Positions 7,875-24,554 of a DNA stretch of 35,672 nucleotides are shown here, piece after piece; the first letter of the stretch is position 1, and the number at the start of each line of letters is the position of its first letter. The stretch comes from an uncultured Clostridia bacterium. Its GTDB lineage: Bacteria > Bacillota > Clostridia > Oscillospirales > CAG-382. Where the stretch lies: NCBI GenBank assembly GCA_947305675.1, contig CAMZED010000004.1, positions 1 through 35,672 on the forward strand, in the 5' to 3' direction. Under the pieces are notes generated by a model. That model saw only the letters and a program-made list of their open reading frames with translations, was not told where the DNA came from and searched no databases. The position numbers and the translations under genes are program-made.

Positions 7875-8050
7875 TCGGCACGCGAAAATAAACGTACAAA
7901 TCCCGGACGTATCTGCCGGGCATGAACGAAAAAGGTTATCCGCCCGGTGCGGATAACGTACGACAGTCGAGCTTTTCGGAAAAGCACTGTTTTTAAAGGG
8001 GTTACGCGGCTTTGGTGAAAGCAGCATAACCCCTTTGCGTTTTTTCTTGT
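7875..8050. repeat. hairpin-rich 3' region of the PNP gene with short matches to the 224-bp repeat family
   Basis: Starts TAATCGGC at the stop codon. Hairpins GTTATCCGC/GCGGATAAC (7935-7957) and GCTTTTC/GAAAAGC (7971-7985). CAGTCGAGCTTTTCG (7964-7978) is the reverse complement of 20399-20413. Confidence 0.45.
7995..8046 (+). terminator. intrinsic terminator downstream of PNP
   Basis: AAAGGGGTTA ... TAACCCCTTT (7995-8036) followed by GCGTTTTTT. Confidence 0.75.
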
Positions 8051-8160
8051 TCGGGCAATTTACGTCATTCGTGCCGTATCGGTGCGTAAATAGCCGCTTT
8101 GTCTGCGCTCTGGCAGGCAAACGCCTGTTTCAGCCGGTTGGTTTTTTGTTTTAACGGCTC

Positions 8161-16118: not shown

Positions 16119-16133
16119 TAAATAAACAGCGAA

Positions 16134-16173
16134 AAAGGGATTATGCCGAACACGAGATCGGTGTAATCCCTTT
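16134..16173. terminator. intrinsic terminator between convergent genes
   Basis: 15-bp stem AAAGGGATTATGCCG / CGGTGTAATCCCTTT including G-T pairs; similar to the hairpin of the 224-bp repeats. Confidence 0.8.
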
Positions 16174-16240
16174 CTTTGATTGTCTTTGATTTACTTTGTT
16201 AATCTTTGATTGTCTTTGATTGTCTTTGATTGTCTTTGAT
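16171..16240. repeat. 10-bp tandem repeat, consensus TGTCTTTGAT
   Basis: Consecutive decamers tttctttgat, tgtctttgat, ttactttgtt, aatctttgat, tgtctttgat x3. Confidence 0.9.
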
Positions 16241-16262
16241 TAACTTTTGCGCAAACAGCCTC

Positions 16263-16960: not shown

Positions 16961-16988
16961 AAAGGCACTGTTTTTTTACAGCGCCTTT
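16961..16988 (-). terminator. intrinsic terminator of rnj
   Basis: AAAGGCACTGT / ACAGCGCCTTT stem with A/T-rich loop, downstream of RNase J on the minus strand. Confidence 0.7.
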
Positions 16989-17012
16989 CCTTATCTATTC
17001 TTATAAATAACT

Positions 17013-17042
17013 TGTGCGTATGCGGCCGATTATCCGCGGTCT
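17013..17042 (-). repeat. 5' edge of the stop-anchored repeat family at the rnj stop codon
   Basis: Minus strand GGAGACCGCGGATAATCGGC followed by CGCATACGCACAAGTT; the first 20 nt are identical to 20261-20280 at the murA stop. Confidence 0.8.
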
Positions 17043-18709
17043 CCGTAATCGAAAACTATCGGGATGACCATGGGCTTGCGCTTCGTCCGCTTGTTCGCGT
17101 AATCGGCAAGGTCCTCACGCAGGCGGAGTTTTATCGCAGAAACGTCGGTAATGTCTTTTGCAAGGCAGCGGATAATGCAGTTATATGCAAGTTCTTCGAG
17201 CTTGCGGATAATATCCTCGTTTTCTTTTTCATAAACAAATCCGCGCGTGGTCACCTCCGGCATGATCGAAACGGCGCCGAATTCCGGATCGATCCCCGCC
17301 GACACGACGATAACGCCGTCCTCCGCGAGTTTTTTGCGGTCGCGCAGGACGACCCCGCCGACGTCGCCGATCCCGCTGCCGTCGACCATTACCGAACCCG
17401 CCTCCACGCTTCCGGCGTGCTTTATCGTCCGGCGCGAAAGTTCGATCACTCCGCCGATCTCCGGCAGAAGGATTCTGCCGTCTTTCATTCCCAGCTCGCG
17501 CGCGAGCCCGGCGTGGGCGACAAGATGTTTATATTCCCCGTGAACCGGGATAAAAAAGTCCGGGCGGGTGAGCGTGTGCATAAGTTTCAGTTCTTCGCGG
17601 CAGGCATGCCCCGAAACATGAACGTCGTAATTGCTGTAGGTGATAACTTCAGCGCCGCGGCGAAACAGTTCGTTTATTATTTTGGTAATAAACTTTTCGT
17701 TGCCGGGGATCGCCGATGAGGAAAGCACCACCAGATCGCTGCTGCCGAGCGTGAGCTGATTGTGTTCCCCGAACGCCATACGGTAAAGCGCGCTCATAGG
17801 TTCGCCCTGGCTGCCGGTCGTAACCACCGTTATTTTCTCCGGCGGATATTTTTTAACGTCGGAAATATCGACAAGCGTTCCTTCCGGTGCGAAAAGATAC
17901 CCGAGCCTTGTCGCCGCGCTTACAAAGTTCTGCATACTTCTGCCGGTGACGGCTACCTTCCGCCCGGCTTTTACGCTGGCGTTGATTATCTGCTGAACGC
18001 GGTGGACGTTGGAAGAAAAAGTTGCAATAACGACCCGGCGAGTCTCACCGTTAAAGATCCTGTCGAAACTGACGGCGAGCGAACTTTCGCTCGGGGTGTA
18101 TCCCGGGCGTTCGGCGTTGGTGCTGTCGCAAAGCAAAAGCCTTATTCCTTTGCGTCCCAGTTCCGCCAGCCGCGCAAGATCTATCGGCTTTTCGCCCACC
18201 GGGGTGAAATCCACCTTGAAATCGCCGGTGTGAAGTATCCTTCCGCAGGGGGTGTTTATGCAGATCGCGCATGAGTCGGGCATCGAGTGGTTCACGTTGA
18301 TATATTCGCATTCAAAAGCCCCCAGCGTTACCGATTGCCCGGCGTGAATCTCGTAAAGCCTGGCATTTTTTACGTTGTGCTCGGCTAACTTGCCTTCAAT
18401 TATCCCCAGCGTAAGCCTTGTGGCGTACACCGGCACGTTGAATTTCTTTAAAAAATAGGGTACCGCGCCGATATGGTCCTCGTGACCGTGAGTGATCAGC
18501 AGTGCGCGCAGTTTTTCAACGTTCTTTTCAAGATAGCTGAAATCGGGTATGACCAGATCGACTCCGAGCATATCGTCCTCGGGGAACATCACTCCGCAAT
18601 CGACCGCGATAATATCCCCGCCGTATTCAAAGGCGGTCATATTCATTCCGATCCCGTCAACGCCTCCGAGAAAAACAATGTTTACGTTCGGTTTTTTGTT
18701 TTTGGGCAT
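17030..18709 (-). CDS. rnj: ribonuclease J
   Basis: GGVDGIGMNM, THGHEDHIGAVPYFL, HTGDFKVDFTP, CDSTNAERPGYTPSE, TGSQGEPMSAL, VHVSGHACREELKLM, PVHGEYKHL. Confidence 0.95.
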   Translation of the reverse strand: MPKNKKPNVNIVFLGGVDGIGMNMTAFEYGGDIIAVDCGVMFPEDDMLGVDLVIPDFSYLEKNVEKLRALLITHGHEDHIGAVPYFLKKFNVPVYATRLTLGIIEGKLAEHNVKNARLYEIHAGQSVTLGAFECEYINVNHSMPDSCAICINTPCGRILHTGDFKVDFTPVGEKPIDLARLAELGRKGIRLLLCDSTNAERPGYTPSESSLAVSFDRIFNGETRRVVIATFSSNVHRVQQIINASVKAGRKVAVTGRSMQNFVSAATRLGYLFAPEGTLVDISDVKKYPPEKITVVTTGSQGEPMSALYRMAFGEHNQLTLGSSDLVVLSSSAIPGNEKFITKIINELFRRGAEVITYSNYDVHVSGHACREELKLMHTLTRPDFFIPVHGEYKHLVAHAGLARELGMKDGRILLPEIGGVIELSRRTIKHAGSVEAGSVMVDGSGIGDVGGVVLRDRKKLAEDGVIVVSAGIDPEFGAVSIMPEVTTRGFVYEKENEDIIRKLEELAYNCIIRCLAKDITDVSAIKLRLREDLADYANKRTKRKPMVIPIVFDYGDRG

Positions 18710-19006: not shown

Positions 19007-20275
19007 ATGGATAAACTCTATATCTCCGGCGGCAAACCGCTCATCGGTTCCATAAATATCGGCGGAATGAAAAACGCCGCCCTGCCCATAATTTTCGCCA
19101 CCGTCCTGGTCGGTGACGTCTGTGTGCTTGAAAACCTTCCCGAGGTAAGCGACATAAACACCGCTCTGGAGATGATATCCCGTATGGGCGCAAAAGTCGA
19201 AAGGCTTGACCGCGGCACCTACCGTATCGACACGCGTGAAGTCCGCTGCGGCAGCGCTCCGCTCGATCTGGCGGGTTCAATGCGCGGCTCTTATTACGTG
19301 CTCGGCGCCGAACTCGGCAGGTTCGGCAGATCCGCCACCGGGCTTCCCGGCGGCTGCAATTTCGGCAAAAGACCGATCGACCAGCATATTAAAGGATTCG
19401 AAGCGCTCGGCGCCAAAGTGATTTGCAGCGACGACGCCGTAAGTTGTTTTGCCGAACGTCCGCTTACCGGCACTTCGGTTTATCTCGATATCGCGTCGGT
19501 CGGTGCGACGGTAAACATTATGATGGCGGCGACAAAAGCCCAGGGTATGACGGTCATCGATAACGCCGCGCGCGAACCGCACATCGTCGACCTCGCCAAC
19601 TTCCTCAACTCCTGCGGGGCGAACATCTCCGGCGCCGGGACAGAGGTCATAAAGATCCGCGGCGTTTCGGAGCTTCACGGCGGCACTTATGCCATCATCC
19701 CGGATATGATCGAGGCGGGCACTTATATGATCGCCGCCGCCGCCACAAAAAGCAAGCTGACGATAACCAACGTTATCCCCAGGCACCTCGAAGCGACCAC
19801 CGCCAAACTGATCGAAGTCGGTGTAAAAGTCGAGGAAGGCGATGATTACGTCACCGTGTCTTATGAGGGCGAGCTTAAAAAAGCGCGCGTCAAGACCGAT
19901 TTTTATCCCGGTTTCCCGACGGATATGAATCCCCAGTTCTGCGTTCTTCTCTGCCTTGCCGACGGCGAAAGCGTGCTTACCGAAAGCGTTATGGATAACC
20001 GCTTTAAATATACCGACGAACTCGCCCGTATGGGCGCAAAGATCTCCGTCCACGGGCGCGACGCGGTCGTCACCGGCGTGACGGAACTTCACTCGGCAAA
20101 CGTGCGCGCCGTCGATCTGCGCGCCGGTGCGGCAATGGTTATCGCCGCGCTTGCCGCCAAAGGCACCACCGTGATCGACGACATTTATCACATCGAGCGC
20201 GGATACGAGGATATGGTGGAGAAGCTGAGGGGCGTCGGTGCCGACATCCGGATCGTCAGGGGAGACCGCGGATAA
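19007..20275 (+). CDS. murA: UDP-N-acetylglucosamine 1-carboxyvinyltransferase
   Basis: GGKPLIGSINIGGMKNAALPIIFATVL, LPGGCNFGKRPIDQHIKGFEALGA, PDMIEAGTYMIAAA, YPGFPTDMNPQF. Confidence 0.95.
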   Translation: MDKLYISGGKPLIGSINIGGMKNAALPIIFATVLVGDVCVLENLPEVSDINTALEMISRMGAKVERLDRGTYRIDTREVRCGSAPLDLAGSMRGSYYVLGAELGRFGRSATGLPGGCNFGKRPIDQHIKGFEALGAKVICSDDAVSCFAERPLTGTSVYLDIASVGATVNIMMAATKAQGMTVIDNAAREPHIVDLANFLNSCGANISGAGTEVIKIRGVSELHGGTYAIIPDMIEAGTYMIAAAATKSKLTITNVIPRHLEATTAKLIEVGVKVEEGDDYVTVSYEGELKKARVKTDFYPGFPTDMNPQFCVLLCLADGESVLTESVMDNRFKYTDELARMGAKISVHGRDAVVTGVTELHSANVRAVDLRAGAAMVIAALAAKGTTVIDDIYHIERGYEDMVEKLRGVGADIRIVRGDRG

Positions 20276-20494
20276 TCGGCTGTTTACGCACAAGTTGATC
20301 AATAAAATAAATTCGGAAAGGGTTATACCGTACTTTCGTTCGGCGTAATCCTTTTTTCGTTTCCCCGATTATTATGATTTTTATAACTTGTGCTTGCACG
20401 AAAAGCTCGACTGCCGTAGACCACTACGGCGACGCTCGCTTTTCCTGCAAAACATCTCGATTCTACGCGGTCTCCGCGCCGTACCGTGTTGGCG
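20261..20494 (+). repeat. structured repeat, array A unit 1 (core 20271-20494, 224 bp, plus 10-nt edge inside murA)
   Basis: gataatcggctgtttacgcacaagtt start; hairpin 1 20317-20354; hairpin 2 GCCGTAG-acca-CTACGGC 20413-20430; GGAGACCGCG (20261-20270) complementary to CGCGGTCTCC (20466-20475). Confidence 0.9.
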
Positions 20495-20718
20495 GATAAT
20501 CGGCTGTTTACGCACAAGTTGATCAATAAAATAAATTCAGAAAGGGTTATACCGCGCTTATGTTCGGCATAATCCTTTTTTCGTTTCCCCGATTATTATG
20601 TTTTTTATAACTTGTGCTTGCACGAAAAGCTCGACTGCCGTAGACCACTACGGCGACGCTCGCTTTTCCTGCAAAACATCTCGATTCTACGCGGTCTCCG
20701 CGCCGTACCGTGTTGGCG
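20495..20718 (+). repeat. structured repeat, array A unit 2 (224 bp)
   Basis: Nearly identical to unit 1; starts exactly 224 bp after it. Confidence 0.95.
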
Positions 20719-20801
20719 GATAATCGGCTGTTTACGCACAAGATATTTAAAATATAATTCAGGAAAGGGTTATACCGTACTTTCGTTCGGTGTAACCCTT
20801 T
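20719..20801 (+). repeat. structured repeat, array A unit 3, partial, ending at its terminator hairpin
   Basis: gataatcggctgtttacgcacaag plus AAAGGGTTATACCG-tactttcgtt-CGGTGTAACCCTTT; unit start is 224 bp after unit 2. Confidence 0.9.
20764..20801. terminator. terminator-like hairpin between murA array and convergent sigK
   Basis: 14-bp stem AAAGGGTTATACCG / CGGTGTAACCCTTT located between convergent murA and sigK. Confidence 0.65.
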
Positions 20802-21773: not shown

Positions 21774-23939
21774 ATGGAGATCAGTCTTGCAAGATCAAAG
21801 TTAAAACCGGCTTTCGCCGGGATACTCTCGGGGGCGGCGGCTTTTGTGCTGGGCACCGCTTCGATCGCCGAAGGCGTTAAGCCTTTCGGCATAAGCCTTA
21901 TATGCGCGGTCGGGAAAGAAAAACGGAAATATGTATTCGCCGGGGCGCTTCTGGCTTCGCTTACCGACAAAAACATATGGCTTTCGGCATTCTGCGCGGT
22001 TTATATATTCATTGTTCTTGCCGCAAAAGAAAAGCACGGCGGCGTGTTCATTTACACCCGCGTATTGCTTGCGCTTTCGGCGAGCGCTCTGCGCGCCGTT
22101 TATATCGCGGTGGGAGGGATCGGATCGGTCGCTTCGGTTTTTTCGCTGATCGCGGCGGTGATATCCTACCCGGCTTTTACATACGCCTTCCGGGGCAGAT
22201 ACGACCGCAAAAAAGAACTGCGCCGGGTAAGATACGAGATATCGCTTTTGGCGTTTGCGTTCGCTTTCACCGCTGCGGCCGCCCCGTTTGAACTGTTCGG
22301 CGTAAACCTCGGCATTATCCCGGCGGCGGGATTCACGCTTTGCGCCGCGCGGCGCAAAGGGTTCGCGTTCGGCGGTATATGCGGGACGGTGTGCGGCCTT
22401 GTCGCCGGAGGAGCGGCGACGGGAGCTTTGGGAGTGATGGGGATGGCTTACGGTCTGCTCGCGGGGGAGAGCGAGCCGCTTGCCGTTATCCTGGGATATA
22501 TGCTTTCGGTTTCGGGCTATTATTACCTTGCCGGAGCCGAAACCACCCCCGCGGCGGCGCTGATGCTTTTGGCTGTGACGGCGGCTTTTTATCCGCTTCG
22601 CAAAAAGATCGCTCCCGCCGAACCGGCTCCGAGCGCCGAAAAGCGCGCCATGGACCGGCGGATGTCGCGTTACGCGGCGACTTTCTCCTCGCTTTCGTCG
22701 CTGTTTTATTCGGTTTCCGACGCCGCGCGCGAACAGAGCGTGAGCGAACTTAACGCCGATATCGTTAAAACCGTCGACGAAAGATGCGGCCATTGCGCCG
22801 GCTGCGAGCTTGACAAAAGCGAAATAACCAACTTCTTCACCAGGGAAATACGCAACAACGGCGTCGTCACCTACGCAAGAATGCCTTCGCACATAACCTA
22901 TCGCTGCCCGAACGCCATGGCTCTGGCGAGATCGGTGAACGGGCTGACCGCTTTGCGCCATGCCGACGGCGAAAAAGGGCTTAAACGTATGGCGGACGAA
23001 TATTCGGCTTTCTCGGCGATACTTTCCGAGGCGGCGAAGAGCCAGGAGGAATCCCGCCGCGAGGACCGCGCCGCCGCGCGGGAGATAAAAAGCCGGCTTG
23101 CGGAGATCGGCGTGACGTGCGACGGGGTCCGCGTAAGCGGAGCGCGCCGGCGCGAGGTGACGGTTTTCGGCGTGGAGCCCGAAAAAATAAGCTGTTCGCC
23201 GGCGGATATATCGGGCGTTTTTTCGGGCGCGGCGGGTACAAAAATGTCCGACCCCGAACTTGTCCCGCACGACGGCTATACCCTTTTAAGATCCCACAGC
23301 GTTCCGGGGTTCAGAATGGAATACGCGAAGTTTTCCGAAGCCAAAAGCGGCGAGCAGGTCTGCGGCGACACGGTGAGCGTTTTTGAAAGCGACGAAAACC
23401 GCTTTGTCTGCCTTGTGTCCGACGGAATGGGCAGCGGGCGCGACGCCGCGCTTACCAGCCGCCTTTCGGCGATAATGCTTGAAAAACTGCTTTGCGTCGG
23501 CGCCGAAAAAGAAAGCGCGCTTAAACTTTTGAACAAGGCGCTGAGCGAAAAGCAGGAAGAGGTATTCGCCACCGTCGATCTGCTCGAGATCGACCGCATC
23601 ACCGGCAAGGGCGAAATAATAAAAGCCGGCGCGGCACCGAGCATACTTATACGCGGCGGAAAATCGTACAATCTCGAATCCCGCACGCCGCCCGCCGGAA
23701 TAATGAAAACCGTGATCGCCGACAAAAAGACTTTTGAGGTTCGGAAAGGCGATATGATCGTTATGATGAGCGACGGGATAATGCAGACCGGCTCTGAAAA
23801 AAAGATCCTCCCCGCCGAGGGGATCCCGCCGATGCCCTCTGCGCGGGCGCTCGCCGAAAAGATCCTGCGCGACGCGCGCGACGAGCTCGGGTGCGGGGGA
23901 GAGGACGATATGTCTGTCTGTGTAATTCGCGTCTATTAG
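21774..23939 (+). CDS. spoIIE: stage II sporulation protein E (membrane PP2C-type phosphatase)
   Basis: N-terminal multi-TM region; ISGDxx-like VCGDTVSVFE, VCLVSDGMGSGRDAALTSRLSAIMLEKLL, MIVMMSDGIMQ, GGEDDMSVCVIRVY. Confidence 0.95.
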   Translation: MEISLARSKLKPAFAGILSGAAAFVLGTASIAEGVKPFGISLICAVGKEKRKYVFAGALLASLTDKNIWLSAFCAVYIFIVLAAKEKHGGVFIYTRVLLALSASALRAVYIAVGGIGSVASVFSLIAAVISYPAFTYAFRGRYDRKKELRRVRYEISLLAFAFAFTAAAAPFELFGVNLGIIPAAGFTLCAARRKGFAFGGICGTVCGLVAGGAATGALGVMGMAYGLLAGESEPLAVILGYMLSVSGYYYLAGAETTPAAALMLLAVTAAFYPLRKKIAPAEPAPSAEKRAMDRRMSRYAATFSSLSSLFYSVSDAAREQSVSELNADIVKTVDERCGHCAGCELDKSEITNFFTREIRNNGVVTYARMPSHITYRCPNAMALARSVNGLTALRHADGEKGLKRMADEYSAFSAILSEAAKSQEESRREDRAAAREIKSRLAEIGVTCDGVRVSGARRREVTVFGVEPEKISCSPADISGVFSGAAGTKMSDPELVPHDGYTLLRSHSVPGFRMEYAKFSEAKSGEQVCGDTVSVFESDENRFVCLVSDGMGSGRDAALTSRLSAIMLEKLLCVGAEKESALKLLNKALSEKQEEVFATVDLLEIDRITGKGEIIKAGAAPSILIRGGKSYNLESRTPPAGIMKTVIADKKTFEVRKGDMIVMMSDGIMQTGSEKKILPAEGIPPMPSARALAEKILRDARDELGCGGEDDMSVCVIRVY

Positions 23940-24171
23940 AGACCGTGTATAATCGGCTGTTTACGCACAAGTTGATCAATAAAATAAATTCGGAAAGGGT
24001 TATTCCGTACTTTCGTTCGGTGTAATCCTTTTTTCGTTTCCCCGATTATTATAATTTATATAACTTGTGCTTGCACGAAAAGCTCGACTGCTTTACGGTT
24101 GTAAAGCGACGCTCGCTTTTCCTGCAAAACATCTCGATTCTACGCGGTCTCTGCGCCGTACCGCGTTGGTG
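23938..24171 (+). repeat. structured repeat, array B unit 1 (core 23948-24171, 224 bp, plus 10-nt edge overlapping the spoIIE stop codon)
   Basis: tataatcggctgtttacgcacaagttgatcaataaaataaattcgg as in array A; hairpin 2 here is GCTTTAC-ggtt-GTAAAGC (24090-24107). Confidence 0.92.
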
Positions 24172-24395
24172 TATAATCGGCTGTTTACGCACAAGTTAAG
24201 CAGAAAAATAAATCAAAAAAGGGTTATACCGCGCTTATGTTCGGCATAATCCGTTTCTCGTTCCCCCGATTATTATGATTTATATAACTTTTGCTTTTCC
24301 GAAAACGTCGACTGCCGTAGACCTCTACGGCGACGCTCGCTTTTCCTGCAAAACATTTCGATTCTACACGGTCTCCGCGCCGTACCGTGTTGGCG
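24172..24395 (+). repeat. structured repeat, array B unit 2 (224 bp)
   Basis: Starts 224 bp after unit 1; hairpin 2 GCCGTAG-acct-CTACGGC at 24314-24331. Confidence 0.92.
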
Positions 24396-24428
24396 GATAA
24401 TCGGCTGTTTACGCACAAGTTGATTAAT
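24396..24428 (+). repeat. structured repeat, array B, 33-bp fragment
   Basis: gataatcggctgtttacgcacaagttgattaat only. Confidence 0.85.
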
Positions 24429-24515
24429 TACAATCGGCTGTTTACGCACAAGTTAAGCAGAAAAATAAATTCGGAAAGGGTTATTCCGCGCTTATGTTCG
24501 GCGTAACCCTTTTTT
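24429..24515 (+). repeat. structured repeat, array B final partial unit ending at a terminator hairpin
   Basis: tacaatcggctgtttacgcacaagttaagcag... AAAGGGTTATTCCG-cgcttatgtt-CGGCGTAACCCTTTTTT. Confidence 0.88.
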
Positions 24516-24554
24516 CAGCGGAGCGGGCAGACCGATAAACGTTGTTTGCCGCTA

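Follow-up and report, generated by a model that had tools for sequence, protein, structure and literature searches.

The window analysed here is contig C4 (35,672 nucleotides) of a 171-contig, 1.59-Mb assembly of an uncultured Clostridia bacterium that is 92% complete. It carries four full 224-nt repeat units in two arrays, starting at 20272 and 20496 in array A and at 23949 and 24173 in array B, and all four hold a hairpin, hp2, at unit position 142. On the + strand, hp2 reads GCCGTAG-ACCA-CTACGGC in both A1 (20413-20430) and A2 (20637-20654) and GCCGTAG-ACCT-CTACGGC in B2 (24314-24331). In B1 (24090-24107, +) we directly read GCTTTAC-GGTT-GTAAAGC, in which both arms are replaced and pairing is retained, exactly as an earlier note on this DNA had described. 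We asked whether this replacement reflects a constraint on the stem, and what sort of repeat would carry such a hairpin.

The replaced hairpin in the window

Comparing A1 and B1 position by position, we found that 10 of 18 hp2 positions differ, as opposed to 8 of the 206 positions elsewhere in the unit (Fisher p=2e-8). Six of the altered positions lie in the stem, where they amount to three complete pair exchanges. The changes on both arms that the earlier note had listed are present, but in their clustering they look like a single block event and not like a series of separate compensatory changes. One block event that keeps the palindrome is weak evidence for selection, so we did not take the window on its own to prove selection on hp2, and gathered copies elsewhere.

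Two pairs of otherwise near-identical copies from other loci display the same kind of change. L192 and L195 agree at all but 2 of 177 flanking positions yet differ at four stem and two loop positions of the tip, and L109 and L176 differ at 4 of 177 flanking positions and at four stem positions, with the loop unchanged. Judged from these comparisons, block exchange of the hairpin tip with pairing kept is recurrent.

The replacement also bears on a possible coding role. A minus-strand frame without stops runs through 170 nt of the unit in A1, A2 and B2; in B1 alone, a stop inside hp2 interrupts it. The frame is without support as a gene, in line with the suggestion that the ORF is unconstrained.

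Pairing across homologous copies

The hairpin is the tip of a larger conserved core, which in unit B1 extends from 24071 to 24128 (+) and consists of an outer stem, an internal loop (TCGACT on one side and ACGCT on the other) and hp2, with a DNA fold z of -2.96 and covariation in 33 homologues. Across these 33 distinct cores, 92.4% of the cells in the outer stem and hp2 pair, compared to 77.5 ± 0.9% after shuffling and 42-48% in slid controls, and two-sided changes occur at 11 of 20 pairs; as copies within genomes are related, fewer independent events underlie these cell and pair counts than the figures suggest. Covariation was 0.339 against 0.083 (0/500 shuffles) for the core, and 0.285 against 0.080 ± 0.018 in shuffled alignments (0/500) for hp2 alone. 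The outer stem has as many as five pair types at one position, and the internal loop separating it from hp2 is near-invariant.

We then counted pairs in 95 distinct copies of hp2 from the window's own genome and its relatives. In the upper five pairs, 472 of 475 cells are Watson-Crick, one is G.T and two are mismatches, and all three exceptions fall in the degraded-looking copies L226 and L228. This supports the proposal that the stem is constrained; the unpaired substitutions at background rate that had been named as its refutation were not seen. Two-sided changes are found at four of the seven pairs, including GC, TA and CG at pair 4 and GC and CG at pair 7. The perfect 7-bp stem claimed for hp2 holds in the window units but not in general: in 52 of 95 copies a mismatch, mostly pyrimidine-pyrimidine, takes the place of the second-lowest pair. 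On these counts, the two basal pairs are not constrained like the upper five.

A further stem, P2, likewise covaries, its letters changing on both sides. In 81 of 92 copies it has 6 bp or more, and 24 different sequence pairs occur; its arms are GCACAAGTTG/TAACTTGTGC in the window and GCCCTTGAAA/TTTCAAGGGC, among others, in relatives. A count based on the alignment retained just 26 arm pairs, the offset of P2' being variable, and is weaker than the count of 81 of 92.

Near-absence of wobble in hp2 suggests that the structure need not be RNA: it fits a constraint on DNA pairing or a palindrome-restoring process no less well than an RNA function. Using hairpins chosen by energy, we found 9.0% G.T pairs in hp1, the terminator-like hairpin enclosed by P2, over 87 distinct copies (at least one in 70 of 87), and 2.9% in the core by the same energy-based count. 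The contrast between hp1 and hp2 favours a core under DNA-pairing constraint and an hp1 terminator tolerant of wobble, a hint in that the counting methods and base compositions differ. The scarcity of G.U in hp2 may also stem in part from the pair types present (GC, CG and TA) rather than from selection at the DNA level.

A MITE-like element at intrinsic terminators

The repeat is a MITE-like, non-autonomous mobile element of about 210-250 bp, with imperfect terminal inverted repeats (TIRs) and three hairpins. P2 arms enclose the terminator-like hp1, and the core that follows is built of a 13-bp outer stem, the invariant internal loop and hp2. In array B, element B1 spans 23938-24152 (+), bounded by the inverted repeats AGAGACCGTGTATAATCGG on the left and ATTCTACGCGGTCTCT on the right, and the minimum free energy RNA structure of this unit (23939-24160; MFE -81.3, z=-8.6) is a TIR stem that encloses P2 with hp1 and the core with hp2. 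Element A1 spans 20261-20475 (+), from GGAGACCGCGGATAATCGG to ATTCTACGCGGTCTCC; its P2 left arm (20288-20297, +) pairs with 20384-20393, and its hp1 lies inside P2 at 20315-20357 (+), where relatives have other stem sequences.

Partial copies lie both within the arrays and apart from them. Array A has a truncated third unit (20720-20801, +), a left half with hp1 that is 88% identical over unit positions 1-83, and array B closes with two truncated units (24397-24428 and 24429-24516, +). A solitary left half (16984-17043, -; 84% identity over 60 nt) sits at the 3' end of an RNase J gene, and a copy of a diverged family B, with left end CAGAGCGCAGA and truncated inside hp2, lies at 7958-8112 (-; 99% identity over 155 nt to a family-B query). 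The element's left end can supply the end of a host protein. At 20261-20275 (+) it forms the final codons and stop of a MurA-like gene (GGA GAC CGC GGA TAA; translation ...RIVRGDRG*), and it likewise provides the last codons and stop of RNase J (...FDYGDRG*), which is why these unrelated genes share a terminal GDRG* (17030-17044 and 20261-20275).

The window has two other repeats. At 16130-16257 an isolated hp1-like hairpin precedes a 10-nt tandem repeat (TCTTTGATTG), and two 77-nt direct repeats, 86% alike, lie at 941-1119 inside a 959-aa minus-strand ORF, possibly as a repeated domain such as dockerin.

Evidence for mobility comes from the dispersed full-length copies, which as a rule measure 233-250 nt, with a few longer. 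They start with CAGASYGAAGACAAA and finish with a hairpin, hp3 (e.g. CAGTCTGTAGACTTTGTCTACAGACTG), which contributes the other terminal repeat as its outer arm; CAGASYGAAGACAAA on the left and TTTGTCTRCARACTG at the right end of hp3 are imperfect inverted repeats, matching at about 11 of 15 positions by eye. In 24 of 47 copies in which both ends could be read, the two flanks match each other with a score of at least 16, a level reached by none of 2162 mismatched left-right pairs. The match starts just past hp3 and stops at the left CAGA, and the duplicated stretch is an entire intrinsic terminator palindrome of variable length, about 19-34 bp. About 29 copies of 233-250 nt have such a duplicated terminator. 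From their flanks, we conclude that dispersed full-length copies sit within intrinsic terminators and duplicate them. An empty site is available for one insertion, L161 in genome G013: the corresponding sites in the sister genomes G009, G012, G014 and G017 align uninterrupted, with a single terminator read in G012 and G017. For the L137 insertion, the syntenic site in G014 gave no match.

Copies without hp3 are also without the terminator duplication. One such form is tandem and makes up the arrays seen in the window, G003, G004 and G006, which sit at gene 3' ends. Among 31 first-unit copies that lack hp3, 26 have the stop of a same-strand gene close to their left end. As the window arrays have neither hp3 nor a duplicated terminator, we infer their transposition from homology. 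Two shortened copies keep the duplication: L381, truncated on the right, has one of 26 bp, and L376, which seems to retain the last hp3 bases, reads as an internal deletion rather than a truncation. We also observed that the duplicated terminators flanking L079 and L268 have loops that are mutual reverse complements (AAAA and TTTT), and that the two terminator copies at L084 and L248 differ by compensated stem changes.

The element is patchily distributed among relatives. By DNA search, 13 of the 24 genomes of the genus proved to have related cores; at family level, covariance model R1 matched the element in 22 of 63 genomes, belonging to 5 of 13 genera, with up to 19 matches in a single genome (E<=0.001). 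A pattern scan of a genome collection returned 103 stretches, almost all from Clostridia or Oscillospiraceae assemblies and many from ruminant guts. One core lies on a contig of 2.2 kb that bears the label Paludibacteraceae (L293, CAJOFV010000113.1), perhaps through misbinning or transfer. The window's own genome has an A-like copy on contig C13 as well as family B, whose ends are CAGAGCGCAGA...TCTGCGCTCTG and whose copies in many cases break off at contig ends. A second palindromic repeat of 84 nt (GGGGACCCC type) is inserted within the core of the first element at L071, L072 and L073 (contigs C54, C48 and C36 of the same genome) in three copies that are 100% identical, and similar insertions occur in L083, L133, L220 and L230.

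We searched for a source of mobility and for known identities. Searches with left-end patterns and hp3 patterns gave copies of ~240 nt, deletion derivatives and contig ends, with many copies at contig ends, and no autonomous copy. In G053 (L183), two inverted copies enclose 1.6 kb; this stretch was discarded as a candidate, since by eye its long ORF resembles an ordinary cellular enzyme and not a transposase. Also discarded was IS1182, whose profile NF033551 matches 1 of 24 genus genomes (G020), one that has no element match. Rfam 15 gave no gathering match in the window, and at six related loci none of its families matched the element. A Gut-1 RNA match (RF01706; L122:1899-2009, minus; 50.4 bits against a cut-off of 50) adjoins an array and lies outside the element, so it was set aside; short hairpin arrays (CATCAT / GTGAAAT) like those beside L122 are also found near L050, L052 and L381.

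Several known systems share features with this element. Group IIC introns insert next to intrinsic terminators, and the element likewise adjoins them; it differs from these introns in its length of about 240 nt, its terminal inverted repeats and its target duplication, and in that several of its hosts have no reverse transcriptase (RT) match and six scanned loci have no Rfam intron match. The imperfect hairpins of REP/BIME and IS200/IS605 have a conserved mismatch and a foot, and are thought to be recognised as single-stranded DNA. Our element has both, a conserved mismatch at pair 2 (mostly Y.Y, 52/95) and an invariant foot, TCGACT/ACGCT; the inverted-repeat ends and target duplications that it adds are not part of those systems. 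Some insertion-sequence families make long, variable duplications at palindromes.

In overall form the element is MITE-like; bacterial MITEs and the pneumococcal BOX, RUP and SPRITE repeats are the subject of two reviews (PMC10969869; PMC3049150). Like BOX and RUP of S. pneumoniae, QMITE2 of Coxiella and ERIC, the element is short, non-coding, intergenic and multicopy, with terminal inverted repeats, strong folding, a duplicated target (here in 24 of 47 copies) and insertions into one another (PMC10969869; PMC3049150). Unlike them, it makes no short duplication of fixed length but copies an entire terminator palindrome, about 19-34 bp long (the direct repeats of QMITE2 are 7-9 bp; PMC10969869), and it has formally covarying internal stems and an invariant internal loop; our searches found no parent transposase. 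SPRITE of S. pneumoniae is also dispersed, is enriched at gene 3' ends and may act as a terminator (PMC3049150), but is itself a terminator-like stem, whereas our element duplicates the terminator of its host gene and carries hp1 of its own. Within the portions of these reviews that we consulted, a partial coverage of the literature, neither the duplication of a whole terminator nor the formally covarying core is described (PMC10969869; PMC3049150).

What keeps hp2 folded

The reading that we favour, and hold to be probable if only by a little, is that hp2 is the core tip of a MITE-like element whose folded core is kept as a DNA hairpin read by trans-acting mobilising machinery. Such machinery, supplied in trans, would recognise the core in single-stranded or cruciform DNA, and hp2 would stay folded because it is read. 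The machinery would nick both edges of an extruded terminator hairpin, and repair would therefore duplicate the whole terminator. In copies at gene 3' ends, including the window arrays, hp1 can act as a terminator, and these copies have multiplied in tandem; the odd hp2 of the window would be one of the recurrent block exchanges of the tip that preserve pairing. Against this reading, our searches found neither an autonomous copy nor a transposase, and terminal repeats of ~12-15 bp with a variable duplication of palindrome length do not fit an ordinary DDE MITE.

Could the fold instead be kept for a role in RNA? In that case P2, hp1 and the core would form a structured 3' UTR, acting in termination, message protection or protein binding, and mobility would spread what RNA function keeps. 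The position of copies at gene 3' ends (with the same-strand stop in 26 of 31 hp3-less first units), the tolerance of G.U in hp1, an invariant internal loop among variable stems and the better fold of the + strand (z -8.6, compared to -6.2 for the - strand) are all in keeping with this idea. Yet G.U is nearly absent from hp2 (1/475), no Rfam family matches the element, and in dispersed copies the gene's own terminator already lies upstream of it; moreover, many genomes of the genus are without the element, so that no host function needs it. We consider an RNA role somewhat unlikely.

Alternatively, hp2 might need no selection at all if one arm were copied onto the other by mutation, through hairpin-templated repair, template switching or short conversion between copies. 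Differences at the tip are indeed clustered and block-like in otherwise near-identical copies, intermediates with one arm changed are nearly absent, and genomes with a switched tip (G012 and G006) also hold the other tip type. Against such copying, the mismatch at the pair next to the base persists uncorrected in 52 of 95 copies, the loop separating the stems does not vary, and degraded L226 and L228 have uncorrected mismatches. The pair-2 mismatch and the loop speak against a palindrome-restoring process as the whole story, and we judge this account to be improbable. Least probable by far is a retroelement whose RNA is reverse-transcribed into the terminator, in the manner of group IIC introns. 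It would share their intrinsic-terminator targeting, and right-truncated L381 retains its 26-bp terminator duplication, but inverted repeats at both ends would be unexpected and the short copy L376 reads as an internal deletion that seems to keep the final hp3 bases. We rejected retromobility because a reverse transcriptase domain (RVT_1) is absent from several near-complete host genomes: no match was found in the element carriers G000, G004 (97% complete), G006 and G007 (99% complete).

Returning to the DNA-hairpin reading, a bolder form of it, which we put forward tentatively and with more doubt than belief, is that the system reads DNA hairpins twice. Its own Watson-Crick-only core would be the substrate and the intrinsic terminators of the host would be the targets, with cuts at two edges copying the whole terminator and the tip changing by block exchange that preserves pairing. 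If this is true, every insertion leaves the host gene terminated. A variable duplication of a whole palindrome calls for a nuclease or transposase that reads hairpins, and nearly a hundred natural variants of hp2, with scarce wobble, offer a test of DNA versus RNA selection on a stem. The element also explains why many contigs of the window's assembly end inside a copy of it. It resembles a parasite that enters genes where this is safe, at their transcription terminators, and it leaves the host with a spare terminator on its far side.
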